Shown here in pieces: positions 3-20,028 of a stretch of 46,666 nt of DNA. The stretch's first letter is position 1, and each line of letters begins with the position of its first letter. Below the pieces are notes generated by a model. It had not been told where the DNA came from. It worked only from the letters and a program-made list of their open reading frames with translations, and ran no database searches. Position numbers and translations under genes: made by a program. Source of the stretch: Comamonadaceae bacterium (GTDB taxonomy: Bacteria > Pseudomonadota > Gammaproteobacteria > Burkholderiales > Burkholderiaceae_C). Location: contig CANHZG010000002.1 of NCBI GenBank assembly GCA_947464995.1, forward strand, positions 1 through 46,666, given 5' to 3'.

Positions 3-494
3 TCATGGCACAAAGGACTGGCGGTGGCACAAATCAAGGCGGGTTTTTCGGTCGATAACGAAAAGCTCAAACGCTTGGGGGTGGTAGACCCCCGTTCCAA
101 AAACAGCATGGCGCTGTTCAAGTCCGGCGCACTGACCAGTGACGAGCGGCTGTACCTCAGCCTGTGGGGCTCACCCTTGCTCAAAACGGTTTCTATGGAG
201 GCAAAACGAAAAATCGTTACGGCTGGATCGCCGATTGATGAAGCCTATTTCATTATCAGCGGCAGTTTGTTGGCCACGGCGGGTTCGGATATTTACCGAT
301 TGGGGCCGGGTAGCGTGGTCGGTCTGGCCGAGGGAATCGTCAACAAGCCCAGCGCCCTCACTGTGGTGACGGTGTCGCCAGTACAGGCGCACATTATTCC
401 GTTTCACAAAATTGACAACATCATTGCTTTGCTTCCCCTGGAGGTAAAAAGCATTTTGCTCACCATCATTAAAAGAACCTTGGCCTTGCCCTAA
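3..494 (+). CDS. cyclic nucleotide-binding (CNB/Crp-like) domain protein, 5' end probably outside the window
   Basis: Frame is open from the window edge (…SWHKGLAVAQIKAGFSV…). CNB-like beta-roll text 'VTAGSPIDEAYFIISGSLLATAGSDIYRLGPGSVVGLAEGI'; no DNA-binding HTH visible. Confidence 0.7.
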   Translation, partial: SWHKGLAVAQIKAGFSVDNEKLKRLGVVDPRSKNSMALFKSGALTSDERLYLSLWGSPLLKTVSMEAKRKIVTAGSPIDEAYFIISGSLLATAGSDIYRLGPGSVVGLAEGIVNKPSALTVVTVSPVQAHIIPFHKIDNIIALLPLEVKSILLTIIKRTLALP

Positions 495-501
495 AGGCCG
501 C

Positions 502-885
502 ATGGAGCGCGCAGTGAAAGAATTTGACGTTCAGACCTTCCCCGACGGAGAAATGATTTTCAAGGTGGGCGATGTGGCGAGCCACTTGTTTTTTATTCAG
601 TCGGGTGCGGTGGACTTGATTAGCGCGCAAGGCGTGGTGTTCGGCGAAGTTCCCAAAGGGCAATCGTTTGGCGAGGCGGCGATTTTGGCCGGTGGCATTC
701 GCGGCGCGTCCATACGCGCCAAGGGCGAGGTGGTTTGTACGCGGATAGAAGCCGACGTTGCGGCCCAACTGCTCAACGCGCATTCCCCCTTGCTGGTGAC
801 GATATTGGAAGCCTTGCTTTTGCAACAAAGCATGCAAAACAGCTTGCGTCACCCGCAGGATGTTCGGGTGATTGATGCACCCTGA
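502..885 (+). CDS. stand-alone cyclic nucleotide-binding domain protein
   Basis: 'DGEMIFKVGDVASHLFFIQSGAVDLI…QSFGEAAILAGGIRGASIRAKGEV' matches the CNB fold, including a phosphate-binding-cassette-like FGEx(9)RxAS stretch. Confidence 0.8.
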   Translation: MERAVKEFDVQTFPDGEMIFKVGDVASHLFFIQSGAVDLISAQGVVFGEVPKGQSFGEAAILAGGIRGASIRAKGEVVCTRIEADVAAQLLNAHSPLLVTILEALLLQQSMQNSLRHPQDVRVIDAP

Positions 886-1711
886 GGCCGCCTACTTGCG
901 CCTTGCGCAAAACGATTGGCGCGGCTGCTTGGACGATTCTCTGGCCTGGGTTCGGTCTTCTTGGCACGGGGACTGGGTCGGATTGCCGCACTTGCTTGCG
1001 CGCTGTGCGGAATTCTTGGGGCTGCAAGCGTCTCCTATGCGCCCCACGAGCCAGGTGTTGCTAGATGTTGCCCTGGAGGTCGCAAATCGTGTCGAGCGGG
1101 ATGCTGCTTGGGCAGGGGCGGAGCCGGCCTACCACAACCGTCTGCACTTTGCCGATTCACTCACAGCAATCACCGTCCAAACCGCCATCGAGTCCGCGCA
1201 ATCGGGCATCGACGAGCCCGACTGGAAGGCAGCAATGCTGCTGCTTGCGGTAGCGCACGATTACCAGCATCCGGGCAAGGTCAATACCTATGCCAGCGAA
1301 TTGGAGCGATTGACCGTGGAGGCCCTCAAGCCCTTGTTGCACGGCCAACACGTGCCGCCAGAGTGGATTGAGCGCATTGAAACCCTTGTGTTGCGCACGG
1401 ATTTTGCGCTGGTGTCGCAAAACCACCAGCGCGTGCGGGGTGTGCCTTTCTCATGGTGTACCGACTGGGCGACCGTTATATTGAATGAGGCCGATACCTT
1501 GGCCAGTTCTTCCGAGCGATTCGGCCCGGCGCTTGGTGTGGCGCTGGCGGCAGAATGGCAAGCCATTGGTTTTCCCGCCTATGCCGTGGTGGCGACTGCG
1601 CAGGGTCGGCGCGGTTTTTTGGAGCACATTCGTTTTTCCAGCTGCAGCGCAGGTGTATTGGGTGCCCCGCAATGGGTTCAGCGCCAACTCGACGAGCTGG
1701 CCCGGGCGTAA
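875..1711 (+). CDS. 3',5'-cyclic nucleotide phosphodiesterase, class I (PDEase_I/HD)-like
   Basis: Motifs 'YHNRLHFADS' and 'AVAHDYQHPGKVNTYASE' correspond to YHNxxHAxD and HDxxHPGxxN of eukaryotic class I PDEs; later 'LNEADTLAS' resembles the third metal-site region. ATG at 875 overlaps the upstream gene. Confidence 0.72.
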   Translation: MHPEAAYLRLAQNDWRGCLDDSLAWVRSSWHGDWVGLPHLLARCAEFLGLQASPMRPTSQVLLDVALEVANRVERDAAWAGAEPAYHNRLHFADSLTAITVQTAIESAQSGIDEPDWKAAMLLLAVAHDYQHPGKVNTYASELERLTVEALKPLLHGQHVPPEWIERIETLVLRTDFALVSQNHQRVRGVPFSWCTDWATVILNEADTLASSSERFGPALGVALAAEWQAIGFPAYAVVATAQGRRGFLEHIRFSSCSAGVLGAPQWVQRQLDELARA

Positions 1712-1722
1712 CCGCCGCAGGC

Positions 1723-3519
1723 TTAAGGAACCAAAGCCCTGGTGCGTCGGCGCAAGCCAACAAAACCGGTCACCACCAAGGCTAGGGCTAGCAAAATCCA
1801 GGGCAGGGCGGTTTTCATTTTTGGCACTGCGTAGTGCCAAAACGCGTAACGGTGCGCAGTGTTTTCAAGTTCGAAGCCTTCAGGCACCGGCAGCACACCG
1901 TTGTCCTGGGCATACTTTGCGTAGTCTTCTGACATACGGTTGAAGCGCTCCAGTTGGATGTCTTTGAGGTCGCGCGTCTCTCCAGGGTCGACCGACAGGT
2001 CATACAAGTGCCATTGCCCATCGCCCAGGGGAGCAATATTTTTCACCAATTTGTAGTCCCCCTTGAACAGCGCGGCGCTGCCAGCGAGCTCGTAGCCCAA
2101 TGGCTCTTCGGGCCCGTAGACCCGGTCTGTGCGGCCCATTAGCAAAGGCAGCAGGCTGTGGCCCGTGGTGCGTTCCACTGGTTTTCCTTGGTAGGTGCCG
2201 CCGTGCGGCGCGACGCCTGCTGCGTCGAGCAAGGTGGGAACCAGGTCGTTTACGTGGGTCAGCGCGCCCGTCGTTTGGCCCTGCGCCATGCCCGGTAGGC
2301 CGGCAATGATGAGTGGAACGCGCAGACCGCCTTCGCTGGCAAAGTATTTGTAGCCGCTGAAAGGAGAGTTGGTGGCGCTGGCCCAACTCGGTCCGTTGGC
2401 GGAAAAAGTGCCTTTGGCGCCCAGGCCCTCACCGTGCGTCACGTAATTCATGGTGAGCCAGGCTTTGGACAGGGCAATTTTTAGCGGGTTGGCCGGATCG
2501 GACCCGTTGTCCGAGAGGAACACAAAAACGGTGTTCTCGTATTGACCGCTGGCTTTGAGGTGCGCCACCAAGCGGCCCACGTGGAAGTCCATGGCCTGCG
2601 CCATGCCCGCGTAAACCTCCATATGCTGCGCTTGTTCGCGTTGCTGTGCAGGGCTGAGTTGGCCCCAGTCCTGGGTGCTCCTCAAGTCGGCCAACGTGGT
2701 ACCGCTTGGTACCAGACCAAGCGCAGCAGCCCGGTCACGTCGCGCCTGGCGCAAAGCGGTCCAGCCGTCGGCGTACTTGCCGCGGTATTTGTCAATGAAC
2801 TCCCGGGGCGCTTGCAGCGGGATATGGTTGGCCTGAAACCCGATGTAGGCGAAAAATGGCTTTGCGTCTTTGGCGTCTGCGGCTAGGTAGTCCAGGGTTT
2901 TGTCGACAAAGAACTGGGACGAGTAGAAGTCTTTGGGCGGGCTGGCTTCCTGGTCCTGCTCAAACCAATAAGCCTTGTCGTAGAGCAGCATGTAGGTCCG
3001 GTTTTCCCAGTTGTCCGAGCCACTGTCCGCTTGAATAAATGACTTTTCAAAGCCCCGGCTCCCGGGCAACTCTCCAGGGTTCTTGCCCAGATGCCATTTA
3101 CCCGCGATGTAGGTGTGGTAGCCCTTGTCGCGCAGCATGGTGGCCAGGGTCACTACATTGTTATTGAGCACACCGCCATAGCCGGGCTTGCCTTCCTGCG
3201 ACGCGGGCGTGGTCTCTGGCATATTGCCCACACCGTTTCGGTGGCTGTCAACCCCGGTTAGCAGCATCGCTCGGGTGGGCGAGCAGGTCGCAGCAACGTG
3301 GAAATTGGAAAATTTTGCCCCGCGGTGGGCCAGCGCATCGAGGTTAGGGGTGGCAATTTCGCTGCCGAAGGCGCCTACGTCGGTGAAGCCCCAGTCGTCA
3401 GCGACTAACACGACGATGTTGGGTTGGCGCCGGTTGGTGCCGCTAGAACTGCTGTTGCAAACACTGCAAACCAAGCATGCGAGAAGAAGAACTCCGACGC
3501 GCGGAATATTGAAGGCCAT
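1723..3519 (-). CDS. arylsulfatase/sulfatase family protein, exported, C-terminal TM helix
   Basis: 'PNIVVLVADDWGFTDVG' and 'CSPTRAMLLTG' (Cys-type sulfatase signature), FLSDNGSD; N-terminal signal and C-terminal 'ALPWILLALALVVTGFVGLRRRTR'. Confidence 0.92.
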   Translation of the reverse strand: MAFNIPRVGVLLLACLVCSVCNSSSSGTNRRQPNIVVLVADDWGFTDVGAFGSEIATPNLDALAHRGAKFSNFHVAATCSPTRAMLLTGVDSHRNGVGNMPETTPASQEGKPGYGGVLNNNVVTLATMLRDKGYHTYIAGKWHLGKNPGELPGSRGFEKSFIQADSGSDNWENRTYMLLYDKAYWFEQDQEASPPKDFYSSQFFVDKTLDYLAADAKDAKPFFAYIGFQANHIPLQAPREFIDKYRGKYADGWTALRQARRDRAAALGLVPSGTTLADLRSTQDWGQLSPAQQREQAQHMEVYAGMAQAMDFHVGRLVAHLKASGQYENTVFVFLSDNGSDPANPLKIALSKAWLTMNYVTHGEGLGAKGTFSANGPSWASATNSPFSGYKYFASEGGLRVPLIIAGLPGMAQGQTTGALTHVNDLVPTLLDAAGVAPHGGTYQGKPVERTTGHSLLPLLMGRTDRVYGPEEPLGYELAGSAALFKGDYKLVKNIAPLGDGQWHLYDLSVDPGETRDLKDIQLERFNRMSEDYAKYAQDNGVLPVPEGFELENTAHRYAFWHYAVPKMKTALPWILLALALVVTGFVGLRRRTRALVP

Positions 3520-4000: not shown

Positions 4001-4163
4001 AGCGGGCTCCTAAGAAAACGAGATGGATGGCAATAGCATTCATCATGCGCTCGCATCGGGCCGTCGAGGGCCTTGTTGCGTCCGAGCAAAGCGTTCATTC
4101 GCCTTGTCCTGATACAGGTCAATAGGCGCGCTCGTGGGGCTGGCGCGGCCAATCGGACCGGAC

Positions 4164-4177
4164 TTGATTTTGGTCAA
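4164..4177 (+). promoter_or_regulatory. FNR/Anr-like box upstream of the carbonic anhydrase gene
   Basis: TTGAT-TTTG-GTCAA against consensus TTGAT-N4-ATCAA (9/10 half-site positions). Confidence 0.4.
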
Positions 4178-4211
4178 GCCCGGCATATGGATGCGCCCCT
4201 AGACTGGCTCC

Positions 4212-4910
4212 ATGAGTTCAAGCTTTCGCTGCCTGGTTCGGCTTTTTTGTGTTTGGGGCGCTTGCGCTTTTTTTGTGTCGACCTATGCCGCTGGCCTTGG
4301 CCTTTGCACCAGTGGGACGCGGCAATCGCCCATCGACATCACTGGCGCAGTGCGCCAAAACCTCCCCCCGCTGCAATTCGCCTACCGCCCAGAACCCTTG
4401 AAAATTGCCAATGACGGACACACCGTGCGGGTCCGGTTTGGTTTGGGGTCGGAGTTGCATATTGCAAATACGGTCTACCGCCTCCAACAGTTTCACTTTC
4501 ATACCCCAGGGGGCGACCGCATCGGGGGTGAAGAGTTTCCCATGGTGGCGCACCTGCTGCACAAAAGCCCGTCCGGTCAATTGCTTGCGCTGGCCGTACT
4601 GTTTCGCCTTGGCGCCCAGAACCCCACTCTGGACAAGCTGCTGCCCCGCCTGCCCGTCGATGTGGATGGTGACCATGTGGACTCTGACGTAAGTGTCGAT
4701 GCCAGCGCCCTCTTGCCACCCACCCACGGGTACTACCGCTACCTGGGTTCATTGACGGCACCGCCTTGCACCGAGGGCGTGCAATGGATTGTGATGAAAA
4801 CAGCCACCACGCTGTCCGCCGCCCAACTGGCCCAGTACAAAGCCCGGTTTGCCGACAACTCACGCGCCGTACAAGCCATCAACCATCGTACGGTTTATGA
4901 AAGTCCTTAA
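4212..4910 (+). CDS. alpha-type carbonic anhydrase family protein, exported
   Basis: 'GTRQSPIDI', 'NDGHTVRV', 'QFHFHTPGGDRIGGEEFPMVAHLLH', 'YRYLGSLTAPPCTEGVQWIVMK'; N-terminal signal peptide. Confidence 0.9.
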   Translation: MSSSFRCLVRLFCVWGACAFFVSTYAAGLGLCTSGTRQSPIDITGAVRQNLPPLQFAYRPEPLKIANDGHTVRVRFGLGSELHIANTVYRLQQFHFHTPGGDRIGGEEFPMVAHLLHKSPSGQLLALAVLFRLGAQNPTLDKLLPRLPVDVDGDHVDSDVSVDASALLPPTHGYYRYLGSLTAPPCTEGVQWIVMKTATTLSAAQLAQYKARFADNSRAVQAINHRTVYESP

Positions 4911-4938: not shown

Positions 4939-6114
4939 ATGAAAACTGATTCCCGGTGTCTCTTCTGGCTACGGCCTTGGCTGCTTTGCGCGTGTGTTGG
5001 TGTTGGAATGGTTGGCCCGCTGGGGGCAGAAACTTCACAAAAACCGTCCAAAACGACCAAAACGGCAGGCGACGGTGGCGTTGAAGTGGTGGTGACGCAG
5101 GATATGACCGGTGCGGGTCAAGCCTCCAGCGGTGAGATGCTGCCGCCGATACCGCCAGTCACGGGGGACCGCAAGCACCCGGTCGCGTCTTGGGGCAAGC
5201 CCTTGCCCTACCCGATTCTGGTTGCAGACCGTCGCAACAACCGGTTGATCGAAATTGCCCCCAACAAAAAAATCCTGTGGGAGTTTGGCTCACCCAGCTT
5301 GAAACTGTACCGTGGCAACGAGGACGTCAACTTCTCGCCCGATGGTCGGCAGCTGGCCGTGAGCGAGGAAGACAATTTTGATATCCACATCATTGACTTT
5401 GAATCACGCCAAATTACCTGGACTTACGGGGTTCCTGATCGCAAGGGCAGCGCAAACGGACTGCTGAATTATCCGGACGACGCGCACATCCTGGCCGATG
5501 GCAAGTTCCTGATTGCCGACATTCGCAATTGCCGGGTGCTCATCATCGACCCCAAGGACAACCGCATCGTGACCCAGTGGGGCACGCCGGGGAAATGCCG
5601 TCACGACCCCCCCACGCTGTTGGGCTACCCCAACGGGGCTACGCCCATGGACAATGGCGATATCCTGGTCTCCGAGATCGTGGACGCCAAAATCTCGCGC
5701 ATCACGCGTGCAGGCAAGGTGGTTTGGAGCGTCTCGGCGCCCAACATCCGCTACCCCTCGGATGCGTTTCCCACAGTGGACGGCAAGCAGGTCATCGTCG
5801 CAGACTTCTCCAAGCCGGGCCGGGTGGTTATTTTTGATCCGGCGACGCGAAAAATCAGTTGGGAATATTTCGTCAAGGACGGTCCGGGCAGTTTGGACCA
5901 CTGCTCTATCGCCCGCGAGCTGCCCGACACGGGCGATATCTTGGTGGTTGATGACCTCAATGACCGCGTGGTGGTCATTGACCGACAGACCAAACAAATC
6001 ATCTGGCAGTACGGCGAAAAGGGTAAAAAAGGATTCACCCCAGGCCTGCTGCATTATCCCGACGGCGTCGATATCGATGTATTTAGAGACTGGAAAGCGG
6101 CGCCCCGCAAATAG
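4939..6114 (+). CDS. secreted NHL/PQQ-like beta-propeller repeat protein
   Basis: Repeats such as 'ILVADRRNNRLIEIAPNKKILWEFG', 'FLIADIRNCRVLIIDPKDNRIVTQWG', 'ILVVDDLNDRVVVIDRQTKQIIWQYG'; signal peptide after MKTDSRCLF. Start at 4939 preferred over 4849, which would overlap the carbonic anhydrase gene. Confidence 0.75.
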   Translation: MKTDSRCLFWLRPWLLCACVGVGMVGPLGAETSQKPSKTTKTAGDGGVEVVVTQDMTGAGQASSGEMLPPIPPVTGDRKHPVASWGKPLPYPILVADRRNNRLIEIAPNKKILWEFGSPSLKLYRGNEDVNFSPDGRQLAVSEEDNFDIHIIDFESRQITWTYGVPDRKGSANGLLNYPDDAHILADGKFLIADIRNCRVLIIDPKDNRIVTQWGTPGKCRHDPPTLLGYPNGATPMDNGDILVSEIVDAKISRITRAGKVVWSVSAPNIRYPSDAFPTVDGKQVIVADFSKPGRVVIFDPATRKISWEYFVKDGPGSLDHCSIARELPDTGDILVVDDLNDRVVVIDRQTKQIIWQYGEKGKKGFTPGLLHYPDGVDIDVFRDWKAAPRK

Positions 6115-6136
6115 TGTGGCCCCCAGCCGGTGCCGC

Positions 6137-7585
6137 TTACTGGAGTCGTTGGCGGTGACGGGCCATTTGCAGGCGCACCTGCTCGGGCGCAGTGCCACCT
6201 AGGGTGTTGCGGGCATTGAGCGAGCCCGACAGGCTTAGGCACACAAACACATCCTGCCCAATTCCCGCATGGAACTGGCGCAAGGTTTGCAGGGGTAATT
6301 CGGACAAATCCTGGCCCAGGGCCTGCGCCGCTTTGACGGCGTGGGCCACCACTTCGTGGGCATCGCGAAAGGGAAGGCCTTTTTTCACCAGGTAGTCAGC
6401 CAGGTCGGTGGCCGTGGCGTAGCCTTTTTGTACCGCAGCCTGCATGGCGTCGGCATTGACGGTGATGCCACCTTCCTTTTTCCCGGTGGCGGCATTCCAT
6501 TGGCCCCCCACCATCTCGCTGAAAATTCTGAGGGTGTCCTTGAGCGTGTCAACGGTGTCAAACAGGGGCTCTTTATCCTCTTGGTTGTCTTTGTTGTAGG
6601 CCAGTGGCTGCGCTTTCATGAGGGTGATGAGACCCACCAAGTGGCCTACCACGCGCCCGGTTTTGCCGCGTGCGAGCTCCGGCACGTCGGGGTTTTTTTT
6701 CTGCGGCATGATGGAGCTGCCGGTGGTAAAGCGGTCAGCGATGCGGATAAAACCGAAGTTTTGGCTCATCCACAAAATGAGCTCTTCGCTCAAACGGCTG
6801 ATGTGGACCATGCAAATGCTCGCTGCGGCCGTGAATTCAATGGCAAAGTCACGGTCGCTTACGGCGTCCAGGCTGTTTTGGCACACGGCTGGGTGGCCGT
6901 CTTGATCAACCATGCCCAGGCTGCGCGCAACGCGCTCGCGGTCCAGCGGGTAGGTAGTACCCGCCAGTGCGGCGGAACCTAGCGGCAGGCGGTTGACGCG
7001 TTTGCGCACATCGCCCATGCGCTCGGCGTCGCGGGCAAACATTTCCACATAGGCCAGCAGGTGGTGGGCAAAGCTGACCGGCTGGGCCACTTGCAAATGG
7101 GTAAAACCCGGCAGGATGGTTTCGGTATGGGGCTCTGCTACGTCAAGCAGGGACTTTTGCAAGTCGGTTAGTAGCTCGATGATGAGGTCCATCTCGCCGC
7201 GCAACCAAAGGCGCACATCGGTGGCCACCTGGTCGTTGCGGCTGCGCCCGGTGTGCAAGCGCTTGCCCGCGTCGCCCACCAGTTGGGTGAGCCGCGCCTC
7301 GATGTTGAGGTGCACGTCCTCCAGATCAAGCTTCCATTCAAACGCGCCTGCAGTGATGTCGCTTTGGATTTGCGCCATTCCACGGGTAATGGACGCATGG
7401 TCGTCTGCGCTGATGATGCCCTGGTGGCAAAGCATTTCCGCATGCGCCAGGCTTGCGGTGATGTCGGCCTGCCACAGCCGCTTGTCAAAAAACACGCTGG
7501 CCGTGTAGCGCTTGACCAACTCGCTCATTGGTTCAGAAAAAAGCGCCGACCAGGCCTGGGATTTTTTGTCGAGTGGGTTTGTCAT
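6137..7585 (-). CDS. argH: argininosuccinate lyase
   Basis: '[23 protein letters not shown]', '[17 protein letters not shown]'; full length 482 aa. Confidence 0.98.
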
Positions 7586-7773
7586 GGCCCGATTTTATCG
7601 GTCCCACGGCGCGGCAGGCCTTTGGGCGCAGCCGCTGCTTATGGTGGGCACCCCTGCAAGGGGCCGTGGTGAAGCGAACTCAATAGCTGGCACCTGCCCC
7701 TTGGTGGTGGCGCGCCATGCTAGCATTCCCAAAGGCGTCAGGCCCCCCTACTAATTACCAATAGGTTACGACT

Positions 7774-8685
7774 TTGCACCACTTCACTATAGCGACCCGC
7801 GAGAGCCGCCTAGCCCTTTGGCAAGCCGAGCATGTGCAATCCCTGTTGCGCGCGCAGGGCCACACCGTGACGCTCTTGGGCATGACCACCAAGGGCGACC
7901 AAATTTTGGACCGCTCACTGAGCAAAGTGGGCGGCAAAGGGCTTTTTGTCAAGGAGCTGGAAACGGCGTTGGAGGAAGGTCGGGCCGATTTGGCCGTGCA
8001 TTCACTCAAAGACGTACCCATGGAGTTGCCCGCCGGTTTTATTCTGGCCTGTGTCATGGAGCGCGAAGACCCGCGCGACGCCTGGGTTTCAAGCACCTAC
8101 CCCAGCCTGCAGTCGCTGCCCCAGGGTGCGGTGGTGGGCACGTCCAGCCTGCGCCGCGTGGCCCTGCTGCGTGCACTGCGGCCTGACCTGCGGGTTGAAC
8201 CCTTGCGCGGCAATTTGGATACACGGCTGAAAAAGCTCGACAGCGGTTTGTACGACGGCATCGTGCTGGCTGCAGCGGGCTTGAAACGCTTGGGTTTGGG
8301 CGCGCGCATCGCGGAGGTGTTTGAGCCCGACCAGATGCTGCCCGCTGCCGGGCAGGGCGCCTTGGGCATCGAAATTCCCCAGGGTCGCGACGATGTGGCC
8401 CAGGCCCTGGCGCATCTGGTGCACATGCCGACGCTTCTGGCAGTCAGCGCCGAGCGTGCAGTCAGTCGCGTCATGGGCGGCAGTTGCTCGATGCCGCTGG
8501 CGGCCTACGCGACCTTGAACGGCGACGTGCTCCAACTGCGGGCCACTTGGGGCGACCCAGACGGCGTGCATCCCCTGGTGCAGGTGCGGGACCAGGCACA
8601 GGTCTTGGACGCGAACGCAGCGGTGGCTTTGGGCGAGCACGTAGCGCGCGCATTGCAAAGTGCCGTTGACGTGCAGCAGCGCTAG
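7774..8685 (+). CDS. hemC: hydroxymethylbilane synthase (porphobilinogen deaminase), TTG start
   Basis: '[16 protein letters not shown]', 'AVHSLKDVP', '[12 protein letters not shown]'. Confidence 0.97.
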
Positions 8686-8728
8686 GGCACGCAAGCACGG
8701 GGCACCTTGGGTCCGGCCCTGTTTTCCC

Positions 8729-9535
8729 ATGTTCTCTTTACCCCGCGTCATCGTCACCCGCCCGCAGCGTGAAGCACAGGCTTGGGTTGCCAACCTGCGT
8801 TTGCGGGGAATGGATGCGGTGGCCTTGCCGCTGATTTGCATTGGACCTGCGCCGGACCCGGCGGCTTTGCGCCAGGTGTGGGGCACCTTGGACCAGTTTG
8901 ATGCCGTGCTGTTTGTTAGCGGTAATGCAGTGGAGCATTTTTTTGCCCAAAGCCCGATTGGGCTTGCCCACCCGCTGCAAGGCGCCCAGGGCCGCTTGCG
9001 GGCATTTGTGACAGGGCCGGGCAGCCACGCGGCACTGGTGGCCACGGGCGCCAACGCCCAACGGATTGACGCTCCGCCTTTGGAGGGTGGGGCATTTGAC
9101 TCCGAAGCCCTGTGGGAGCAAGTGCGCCACTCCATAGGTCCTGGGTACCGGGTGCTGATCGTGCGCGGCAGCGATGCCGCCACCGGCGCAGGTTCTGAGG
9201 GTGCAGGGCGCGACTGGTTTGGTGAGCAGGCCGCCGCCGCTGGCGCGCAGGTGCAATTTGCAGCTGCTTACACGCGCATTGCGCCGGTATGGACGGATGC
9301 CCAGCGCGCCTGGATCGCGCAGGCTGCCTGTGACGGTTCGGTGTGGCTGCTTAGCAGCAGCCAGGCGCTGAACAATTTGACGGCCTCTTTGCCGGAGCAG
9401 ACCTGGGGTCACGCCAAAGCCGTGGCCACGCATGCGCGCATTGCCGAGGCGGCGCGGCTGGCGGGCTTTGGCACCGTGCGCGAATCAAGTCCCTTGTTGG
9501 CCGATATCACTGCCTCGATAGAATCCTTGGCATGA
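8729..9535 (+). CDS. hemD: uroporphyrinogen-III synthase
   Basis: 'VIVTRPQREAQAWVANLRLRGMDAVALPLI'; lies between hemC and hemX. Confidence 0.92.
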   Translation: MFSLPRVIVTRPQREAQAWVANLRLRGMDAVALPLICIGPAPDPAALRQVWGTLDQFDAVLFVSGNAVEHFFAQSPIGLAHPLQGAQGRLRAFVTGPGSHAALVATGANAQRIDAPPLEGGAFDSEALWEQVRHSIGPGYRVLIVRGSDAATGAGSEGAGRDWFGEQAAAAGAQVQFAAAYTRIAPVWTDAQRAWIAQAACDGSVWLLSSSQALNNLTASLPEQTWGHAKAVATHARIAEAARLAGFGTVRESSPLLADITASIESLA

Positions 9536-10581
9536 CGCCCATCCCAACTGACGCACCGGAGTCCAGCGCCAACTTATCTGCGCCCATTGGGGCATTGCCA
9601 ACGGCGCCAAGCCCCTGGTGGTGGTATGGCACCGCTGCGGTGGCACTGGTCGGCCTGTTATCTACCGGGCTGTTGTGGCAGAAGGTGTTGGGCATGCAAG
9701 AGAGTTTGGCGCGCCAAAGCGCCGAATCGGTCGGGCAGGCCACCCAAGCCGTGGTTGCGGCCCGCCAAGCGCAGGACCTGGCGCTGGAGACAGCGGCCAA
9801 ACTTACCGTCACCCAGGCCAAGCTCAGTGAAGTCACCATGCAGCGCGGCCAGATCGAAGAGCTGATCCAGAGCCTGTCGCGCTCGCGTGACGAAAATTTG
9901 GTGGTGGACATCGAGTCGGCCTTGCTGTTGGCGCAGCAACAAGCGCAACTCACCGGCAGCGTGGCGCCTTTGCTGGCGGCACTCAAAAGTGCCGATTTGC
10001 GTTTGACGCGCGCCGCCCAACCCCGCTTGGCGCCTTTGCAGCGCGCCATCGCCAAAGATGTGGCCCGTATCCAAGCCACGGCCTTGTCGGACACGCCATC
10101 CCTGTTGGTCCAACTCGACGAACTGGCCTTGTTGGCCGACGATCTGCCCATCGCCAATGCCGTTGGGCAAGCGCGCGTGACCGAGCCCCTGGCGCGCAAG
10201 CCTGACGAAGCGGTGTCGCAGTGGTGGTTGCGCATGGGAGTGGAGATTCGGGAGGAGATCAAAAGTTTGGTGCGTGTAAGCCATATTTCTGAGCCCGACG
10301 CGGCGCTTTTGTCGCCGGACCAGTCCTTCTTTTTACGCGAAAACCTCAAGCTACGTATCTTGAATGCGCGCTTGGGGCTCTTGTCCCGTCAAATCGAACC
10401 TGCCCGCGCTGATCTGGCCACGGCGTCGCTGGTGCTGGGGCGCTATTTCGCCCCCGGTTCGCGCAAGACCCAAACCGCCCTAGCGCTGCTCAAGGATGTT
10501 CAGGGCAAGATGCGTGCGCTGGAGCTTCCTCGGGTGGACGAAACCTTGTCCGCGCTGTCCACCGCTGCGGCTGGACGTTAA
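9532..10581 (+). CDS. hemX: HemX-family membrane protein
   Basis: ATGA overlap with hemD; N-terminal TM, coiled coil, 'QWWLRMGVEIREEIKSLVRVSHISEPDAALLSPDQSFFLRENLKLRILNARL'. Confidence 0.9.
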   Translation: MTPIPTDAPESSANLSAPIGALPTAPSPWWWYGTAAVALVGLLSTGLLWQKVLGMQESLARQSAESVGQATQAVVAARQAQDLALETAAKLTVTQAKLSEVTMQRGQIEELIQSLSRSRDENLVVDIESALLLAQQQAQLTGSVAPLLAALKSADLRLTRAAQPRLAPLQRAIAKDVARIQATALSDTPSLLVQLDELALLADDLPIANAVGQARVTEPLARKPDEAVSQWWLRMGVEIREEIKSLVRVSHISEPDAALLSPDQSFFLRENLKLRILNARLGLLSRQIEPARADLATASLVLGRYFAPGSRKTQTALALLKDVQGKMRALELPRVDETLSALSTAAAGR

Positions 10582-18638: not shown

Positions 18639-19429
18639 GGGCCGATACAAAACACCGTCGGGGTGCCATTGTCCAGCGTCCAACGCCGTTCCTGCCACGT
18701 GGCCATGCTGGCGCTGTAATTGACTGCAGTGTCCAATGTCAAACCGCTGGAGGTGGCCAGTCGGGTGCCCGGCTTGAGGCTGCTTAGCAAGGTTTGCAGC
18801 ACCGCTTGGTTGCGGTAAGGTGTTTCGATGAAAACCTGAGTTTGAAGCGTTTTTAGCGCAACCGCCTCCAAGGCCTGCAGGCGAGAAGCCCGCTCAGCCG
18901 GATCGGTGGGTACATAGCCCACAAATGCAAAACTTTGGCCATTGAGGCCGCTGCATGCCAGAGCCAGTAGCAAGGAAACTGGCCCGACCAGGGGCTTGAC
19001 CTCAACGCCCAGGTCATGTGCAGCACGCACCACCGAAGCGCCGGGATCGGCCACCGCTGGCATGCCCGCTTCGCTGACCAGCCCCATCGCGTGGCCTTCC
19101 AGGGCGGCATCGAGCAAATGGCGGGCGTCAAAATTACCCTGGTGGTCGCCTTTTTTGTGCACCAGACGGGGAAGTTCCAGCAAAATTTGGGACTGGATTG
19201 GCACCCGCAGTGGGCATATTTCCCCGACGCGTTTAAGGTAGGCGCGGGTCGACTTTGCATTTTCGCAAATCCAGTAGTTAAGCGAAGCAGCGATTTCCAG
19301 CGTGCGCATCGGCATGGAAGAAGCCAAATCGCCGGACTCGGAGCAGCCAAAATCCAAGGGCGCTGGAACCAAATACAGGCACCCGCGCGGCCCGGTGGAT
19401 GCGGCGCGTGCTTGCTCGGAAGCGTTCAC
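18635..19429 (-). CDS. SAM-dependent methyltransferase of the tetrapyrrole methylase/RsmI-related family
   Basis: 'CLYLVPAPLD', 'MGLVSEAGMPAVADPGASVVRAAHDLGVEVKPLVGPVSLLLALACSGLNGQSFAFVGYVP'; GTGA overlap with maf. Confidence 0.85.
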   Translation of the reverse strand: MNASEQARAASTGPRGCLYLVPAPLDFGCSESGDLASSMPMRTLEIAASLNYWICENAKSTRAYLKRVGEICPLRVPIQSQILLELPRLVHKKGDHQGNFDARHLLDAALEGHAMGLVSEAGMPAVADPGASVVRAAHDLGVEVKPLVGPVSLLLALACSGLNGQSFAFVGYVPTDPAERASRLQALEAVALKTLQTQVFIETPYRNQAVLQTLLSSLKPGTRLATSSGLTLDTAVNYSASMATWQERRWTLDNGTPTVFCIGP

Positions 19430-20028
19430 AGTGTTCCCATGACAGCAATGCCGGCGCCGCGCAGCATGGCGCACAAGCGGATCAAGGGCAGGCCGATCAG
19501 CGCCGTGGGGTCGTCGTTGCCAATGCTTTCCATCATGGCGATGCCCAACCCTTCGCTCTTAGAGCTTCCGGCGCAATCAAAGGGCTGCTCGTAGCGCAAA
19601 TAGTGGTCGATTTCGGCATCGCTAAAGCAGCGGTATCGCACGTGCACGGGTACCAACGCCTGCGCGCAATAGCCGGTCTGGGCGCATACAACAGCCATGG
19701 CGGTTTGAAACACGACGGTTTGGCCGCGCATTTGTTGCAGTTGTGCTCGGGCGCGTTCAAAGTTGCCTGGCTTTCCCAGCGCGATGCCATGGAGGTCGGC
19801 AACCTGGTCCGATCCGATGACGACGCAATCAGGCCTCAGATCGGAGACCGCGCGCGCCTTGGCCAGCGCTAGGCGGGCGGCGAGTTCAGCTGGTTGTTCA
19901 TTGGCGAACGGTGTTTCTTCAACGCCTGGCGGGACAGTTTCAAACGGCAGGTGCAGGCGCCCCAATAGTTCCTTGCGGTACAACGAGGTCGACGCCAATA
20001 AGAGGGGGCGGTGGGGGGATTCTTGCAT
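19426..20028 (-). CDS. maf: Maf-like nucleotide pyrophosphatase (YceF-type)
   Basis: 'LLLASTSLYRKELLGRLHLPFETVPPGVEE', 'VVIGSDQVADLHG'. Confidence 0.93.
   Translation of the reverse strand: MQESPHRPLLLASTSLYRKELLGRLHLPFETVPPGVEETPFANEQPAELAARLALAKARAVSDLRPDCVVIGSDQVADLHGIALGKPGNFERARAQLQQMRGQTVVFQTAMAVVCAQTGYCAQALVPVHVRYRCFSDAEIDHYLRYEQPFDCAGSSKSEGLGIAMMESIGNDDPTALIGLPLIRLCAMLRGAGIAVMGTL

Follow-up and report, generated by a model that had tools for sequence, protein, structure and literature searches.

A three-gene cassette at the start of the contig

The stretch of DNA analysed here (the window, 46,666 nucleotides) starts at base 1 of its contig, in a 2.74 Mb, 279-contig, 89% complete genome of a betaproteobacterium. 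Its first 1.7 kb contain three open reading frames on the + strand, which code in order for two proteins with a cyclic-nucleotide-binding (CNB) fold, CNB1 (24–494, 156 aa) and CNB2 (502–885, 127 aa), and for a 278 aa HD protein (875–1711) that we predict to be a class I-like cyclic-nucleotide phosphodiesterase (PDE). The first-pass annotation had described three tightly packed genes at 3–1711, and the packing is indeed tight; the PDE gene starts with an ATG at 875, giving an 11-base overlap with the end of CNB2. CNB1 starts with a GTG at 24, and a likely ribosome-binding site, AAAGGA (12–17, + strand), lies six bases upstream. Because this start, with the same AAAGGA sequence and spacing, is common to four relatives (L009, L011, L012 and L013), the CNB1 gene is most likely complete as 24–494, and we set aside the possibility that it is cut by the contig start.

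Codon comparison with L011 gives dN/dS values of 0.06, 0.17 and 0.14 for CNB1, CNB2 and PDE respectively. All three are under purifying selection and are therefore maintained genes rather than chance frames. Next downstream of PDE is a convergent sulfatase-like gene (1723–3519, - strand), recognised by eye from LVADDWGFTDVG and CSPTRAMLLTG, and a look-alike of alpha-type carbonic anhydrases (4212–4910, + strand; QSPIDITGAV, also by eye) lies further along. As the window begins at contig base 1, the upstream context was read in relatives.

The HD protein resembles class I phosphodiesterases

PDEase_I (PF00233) is the sole Pfam family on the HD protein, with no non-PDE HD family scoring better, and is matched by all nine members of a family alignment (A2). 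The hmmscan match (3.4e-5) covers residues 86–141 only and scores 24.1 bits against a cut-off of 24.8, rising to 25.7 bits when neighbours in the frame are counted; a relative (L045) scores 31.2 bits. The motifs YHNxxHxxD and HDxxHPGxxN noted at first pass are present as YHNRLHFAD (residues 86–94) and HDYQHPGKVN (residues 128–137). The class I signature is H-D-[LIVMFY]-x-H-x-[AG]-x(2)-[NQ]-x-[LIVMFY] (PMC10865986), to which HDYQHPGKVNTY of the window protein (1256–1291, + strand) is a full match. The fit is complete in 7 of 18 family members, and HPG is replaced by HNG or HDG in some of the PDE relatives in A4, an alignment of these 18 diverse sequences.

Alignment with a PDE4D fragment (a letter-for-letter match to PDB 2qyn) pairs Y86-H87-N88, H91, H128-D129, H132, E144 and D207 with the PDE4D YHN, H, HD, H, ENHH and CAD elements. 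Residues H91, H128, D129, H132, E144 and D207 are kept across the A4 sequences except in one truncated copy, and Y86, H128, D129, H132, E144 and D207 were called invariant. The candidate general acid H87 and the candidate metal ligands H91, H128, D129 and D207 are thereby present, and loss of metal ligands, which would have spoken against a PDE, is seen only in the truncated copy. YHNRLH (1130–1147), aligned with PDE4D YHNNIH, carries H87 and H91; the signature carries H128 and D129; E144 (1304–1306) aligns with the Glu of ENHH; and the candidate last ligand D207 (1493–1495) was placed by MAFFT, with NEAD opposite PDE4D CAD (all + strand). Neither hhalign nor MAFFT placed the purine-binding Gln that is invariant in class I enzymes in the window PDE against PDE4D. 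In GRRGFL (1604–1621, + strand), an invariant G-R-x-x-F-L element in A4, Arg245 lies three residues before the Phe, which by pattern only is the position of the Gln in QxxF, and this Arg may replace the purine-binding Gln. Similarity to class I sequences fades beyond residue 141, and the C-terminal half alone gave no credible match in a search of the PDB.

A model of the window PDE predicted from A4 has a mean pLDDT of 93.2. All 50 PDB matches listed by Foldseek with this model are class I PDE catalytic domains, each at probability 1.00, with trypanosomal TcrPDEC1 and human PDE1B at the top and the best nine at E < 0.001 (TM 0.64–0.70 by query length). A search of the PDB with the A4 profile similarly lists 60 matches, all of them class I PDEs, the best being PDE8A (2.5e-8). 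An earlier model from nine close sequences reached a pLDDT of 67.6 and had no PDB match at E < 0.001, and the better model is therefore attributed to the 18 diverse sequences. With class I enzymes alone among the matches listed by both methods, the proposal that the HD protein is a class I PDE is supported by predicted fold and by catalytic residues, and we regard the protein as a divergent, predicted class I-like enzyme.

Two unlike CNB proteins

Pfam cNMP_binding matches both CNB1 (3.6e-7) and CNB2 (6.8e-17), and a Pfam family search found no HTH family on either, in agreement with their initial description as stand-alone CNB proteins. Lacking a C-terminal HTH, neither was accepted as a CRP/FNR transcription factor. 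Both had also been suggested as probable receptors, and here the two differ. CNB2 keeps its pocket: the phosphate-binding cassette FGEAAILAGGIRGAS (667–711, + strand) has the form FGE-x(8)-R, with E58 and R67, and also G57 and A69, invariant in a seven-sequence alignment (A3), and a profile search with it finds regulatory domains of PKG and PKA, the best at 3.9e-26. The pocket Arg is followed by R-(G/S)-A-(S/T), which we take to be CRP- or PKA-like rather than PKG-like. The pocket of CNB1 (GLAEGIVNKPSALTV) is degenerate. Aligned to the second CNB domain (CNB-B) of PKA RI-alpha, it has Leu and Ser at the positions of the pocket Glu and Arg, and these two residues are missing from all seven CNB1 sequences aligned (A1). 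Judged from these alignments, CNB1 is a CNB fold without a cAMP pocket and should not be called a cAMP receptor.

Despite its lost pocket residues CNB1 is better conserved than either CNB2 or PDE, and a structural or signalling partner therefore fits better than decay. There is hardly any match between the profiles of CNB1 and CNB2, and recent duplication was rejected as their origin on these grounds. The two genes are adjacent in G188 (twice), G360, G317, G387 and G225, and in G360 and G193 a single fusion protein of about 405 aa, encoded directly after PDE, combines the two, with a CNB2-like domain whose pocket is intact preceding a CNB1-like domain that lacks the pocket. The second CNB1-CNB2 pair of G188 (L103, 8445–9298, at C10:123 kb) adjoins neither a PDE nor a cyclase, and resembles the window pair more than does the G188 pair near its che cluster.

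The cassette stays together in relatives and is patchily distributed

Six genus relatives keep CNB1, CNB2 and PDE side by side although their flanking genes differ, and this constancy amid changing neighbours argues that the three genes are a unit. PDE is present in 8 of 101 genus-near genomes, and CNB1 is found in six of those eight and in none of the 93 without PDE, leaving out one weak match (2.6e-4) in a PDE-less genome. At the family level CNB1 is found in 13 of 21 PDE-bearing genomes as against 0 of 74 others, again leaving out one weak match in a PDE-less genome. The co-occurrence p values range from 2e-8 to 6e-11, uncorrected for kinship. The co-occurrence in relatives anticipated at first pass is thus borne out. 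One exception within the genus (G021) has a truncated PDE copy; in another (G019, locus L016, 6823–6973) the PDE copy ends beside an apparent start of an IS3-type transposase, at a contig end.

Searches for PDE relatives gave 14 positive genomes of 401 in the family, 8 of 349 in an order-level sample and 1 of 321 in a class-level sample, this one being the window genome itself. The distribution is patchy and, in the samples searched, confined to Burkholderiales. In a phylum-wide sample of 399 genomes, PF00233 exceeds its cut-off in only two, the window genome being one. No relatives were found on plasmids or phages.

Several related neighbourhoods came to light. In family f19, a Popeye-domain protein (matching POPDC1-3 at 5.4e-10) lies about 5 kb from a class I-like PDE (L099 of G639, 4026–4709 and 9103–10044), and L101 (G565) has a similar arrangement; in animals, POPDC proteins act as effectors of cAMP and are linked to PDE4. 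An apparent operon at L048 (G485, 4943–10104) encodes a CHASE2-adenylate cyclase together with a distant PDE relative and a CNB-patatin protein, and a comparable pairing of PDE with a CNB-patatin-like protein occurs in L102 (G721). Weak PDEase_I matches to proteins of about 290–350 aa in six large genomes of genus g591 (L111, L112, L114, L115, L118 and L120) possibly represent another bacterial class I-like group.

A receiver-domain cyclase and chemosensory genes accompany the cassette in relatives

A search for a cyclase just upstream had been suggested at first pass, and relatives do have one, a receiver-domain (REC) adenylate cyclase; none such was found in the window genome. In G042 a REC-Guanylate_cyc protein and a hybrid histidine kinase adjoin the cassette, divergently oriented. 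G225 has, on one strand, CNB1, CNB2, PDE, cytochrome c, MCP, CheA, CheW, CheB, CheR and REC-cyclase. In G387 the REC-cyclase directly precedes PDE, with CheA, CheR and CheB-type genes between it and CNB1-CNB2, and in G360 and G188 the REC-cyclase and MCP, CheW, CheR, CheB and CheA-type genes are within about 20 kb, che gene names beyond L079 (the G225 locus) being assigned partly by eye. In G035 and G024 the REC-cyclase is on a separate contig. L079 also has a Guanylate_cyc-TPR protein (18767–20000, + strand) divergent from CNB1-CNB2-PDE. In G021 the shortened PDE copy directly adjoins, head to head, a cyclase fragment that is the final third of an adenylate cyclase (L017, 9993–10700), as if a rearrangement or misassembly had broken the module.

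The Guanylate_cyc domains of the relatives' cyclases score 2.8e-59 and 2.6e-61, and EKIKT(I/V)GD and YD(I/L)WG contain the Lys and Asp of adenylate-type enzymes; we predict them to be class III adenylate cyclases. Of the 16 PDE-bearing genomes searched with a REC-cyclase profile, 10 give a match at E < 1e-80, as against 0 of 60 PDE-less family members (Fisher 8e-9), counts that ignore kinship and include eight genomes that supplied the search profile, the other two being G317 and G591. This profile search found no REC-cyclase in the PDE-bearing genomes G448, G469 and G262 or in those of f19, and none was found in G038, G011 or the window genome, the last of which shows only a CHASE2-cyclase on contig 93. 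The original idea of a self-contained module therefore fails for the window's own 89% complete assembly. In the window species the REC-cyclase may be encoded in the missing 11% of the genome, or another source of cAMP may be used.

A proposed cAMP pathway and its alternatives

Building on the domain content, motifs, gene order, co-occurrence, CNB fusion and adenylate-type cyclase residues seen in the sequences, we propose a dedicated cAMP pathway in which the three genes supply reception and termination of the signal. It would run from CheA or a histidine kinase to the REC-cyclase, cAMP, the CNB pair and finally PDE, and we think this proposal is probably correct. In relatives with the whole system, we infer that a chemosensory array (MCP, CheW and CheA) or a hybrid histidine kinase would phosphorylate the receiver of the cyclase, and that the receiver-controlled class III enzyme, as its residues suggest, would make cAMP. 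CNB2 would bind this cAMP, with CNB1 as an obligate pocketless partner in contact with it, a role suggested by the pockets, the fusion and the linkage; together they might act like a split two-domain regulatory subunit. The missing HTH points to an output by protein contact rather than DNA binding. PDE, apparently coupled translationally to CNB2, would by its fold and motifs be expected to hydrolyse cAMP and reset the CNB pair.

In a close rival, the CNB pair would serve to regulate PDE itself instead of acting as an effector, such that cAMP bound at CNB2 activates PDE in a feedback reminiscent of the GAF domains of PDE2 and PDE5. This is consistent with the 11-base overlap of CNB2 and PDE in the window, with the position of the CNB2-CNB1 fusion immediately after PDE in G360 and G193, and with the lack of an HTH or other output domain on the CNB proteins, but the second CNB1-CNB2 pair of G188 (C10:123 kb) has no adjoining PDE, and the cyclase and che genes speak for an additional output; we take the feedback arrangement seriously while thinking it rather unlikely. 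It is also unlikely, although conceivable, that the HD protein has the class I fold but acts as a phosphodiesterase on something other than cAMP, for instance cGMP or a non-canonical cyclic nucleotide. An invariant Arg may occupy the site of the purine-holding Gln, the sequence match is limited to the N-terminal half of the domain, and HNG or HDG stands for HPG in some relatives; on the other hand, the linked cyclases have adenylate-type specificity residues, and the CNB2 R-(G/S)-A-(S/T) element is presumably that of a CRP- or PKA-like site and not a PKG-like one.

A catalytically dead PDE serving as a cAMP-binding scaffold could account for the divergence from the Pfam model, the one point in its favour, and is improbable given that H91, H128, D129, H132, E144 and D207 are kept in all 18 sequences bar the truncated copy. 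That the three genes are functionally unrelated chance neighbours is scarcely credible; the flanking genes do vary among relatives, but a constant cassette within varying flanks argues for a unit, as do the co-occurrence (p from 2e-8 to 6e-11, kinship uncorrected) and the CNB fusion.

Relationship to known systems

The window PDE shares with the class I PDEs of PF00233 (PDE1, PDE4, PDE5, PDE7, PDE8, PDE10 and TcrPDEC1) the predicted fold, YHNxxH, HDxxHPGxxN, the metal-ligand positions and an ENHH-like Glu. It differs from them in being bacterial, in having a single domain with no regulatory domain in cis, in having about 50 fewer residues beyond the HD motif, and in that the purine Gln was not located. 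Class I PDEs are listed as eukaryotic in older reviews (PMC4858519); a small number of bacterial and archaeal examples are on record (PMC10865986).

The proposed unit of two CNB proteins, with one intact pocket that aligns with PKA and PKG, recalls the tandem CNB domains of PKA regulatory subunits and PKG, although here the CNBs are on two genes, one is pocketless, and no kinase or inhibitor sequence is seen. CNB2 shares its pocket motif with CRP/FNR regulators, whereas neither CNB protein has their DNA-binding domain. Chemosensory genes also raise cAMP in Pseudomonas aeruginosa, through the Pil-Chp system and CyaB. There, CyaB is a separate membrane cyclase with no known receiver domain, Vfr is the protein that reads the cAMP, and breakdown is by a class III phosphodiesterase, CpdA, whereas the relatives' cyclase contains a receiver of its own and shares its cluster with a class I-like PDE and a CNB pair. 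A class III cyclase is likewise paired with a class I PDE in Marchantia CAPE, a eukaryotic fusion of the two (PMC8115329), although here they are separate bacterial genes. We found no published account of a che-linked receiver cyclase with CNB proteins, or of the combination of REC-cyclase, CNB pair and class I-like PDE, in a search that was thin on subscription journals.

Taken as a whole, the system may be a Burkholderiales cAMP pathway separate from CRP, in which a chemosensory- or kinase-driven REC-cyclase signals to two CNB proteins, one true and one without a pocket, that form a split pair resembling the PKA regulatory subunit, and a class I PDE ends the signal; we advance this broader statement tentatively, as something a little short of an even chance. 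If it is true, cAMP synthesis, reception and breakdown by a class I PDE would be encoded together in a bacterium, in the manner of eukaryotic cAMP signalling, and cAMP would be a direct output of chemosensory input. It would also offer a small, genetically tractable system for studying how cAMP signals stay local and how class I PDEs originated.
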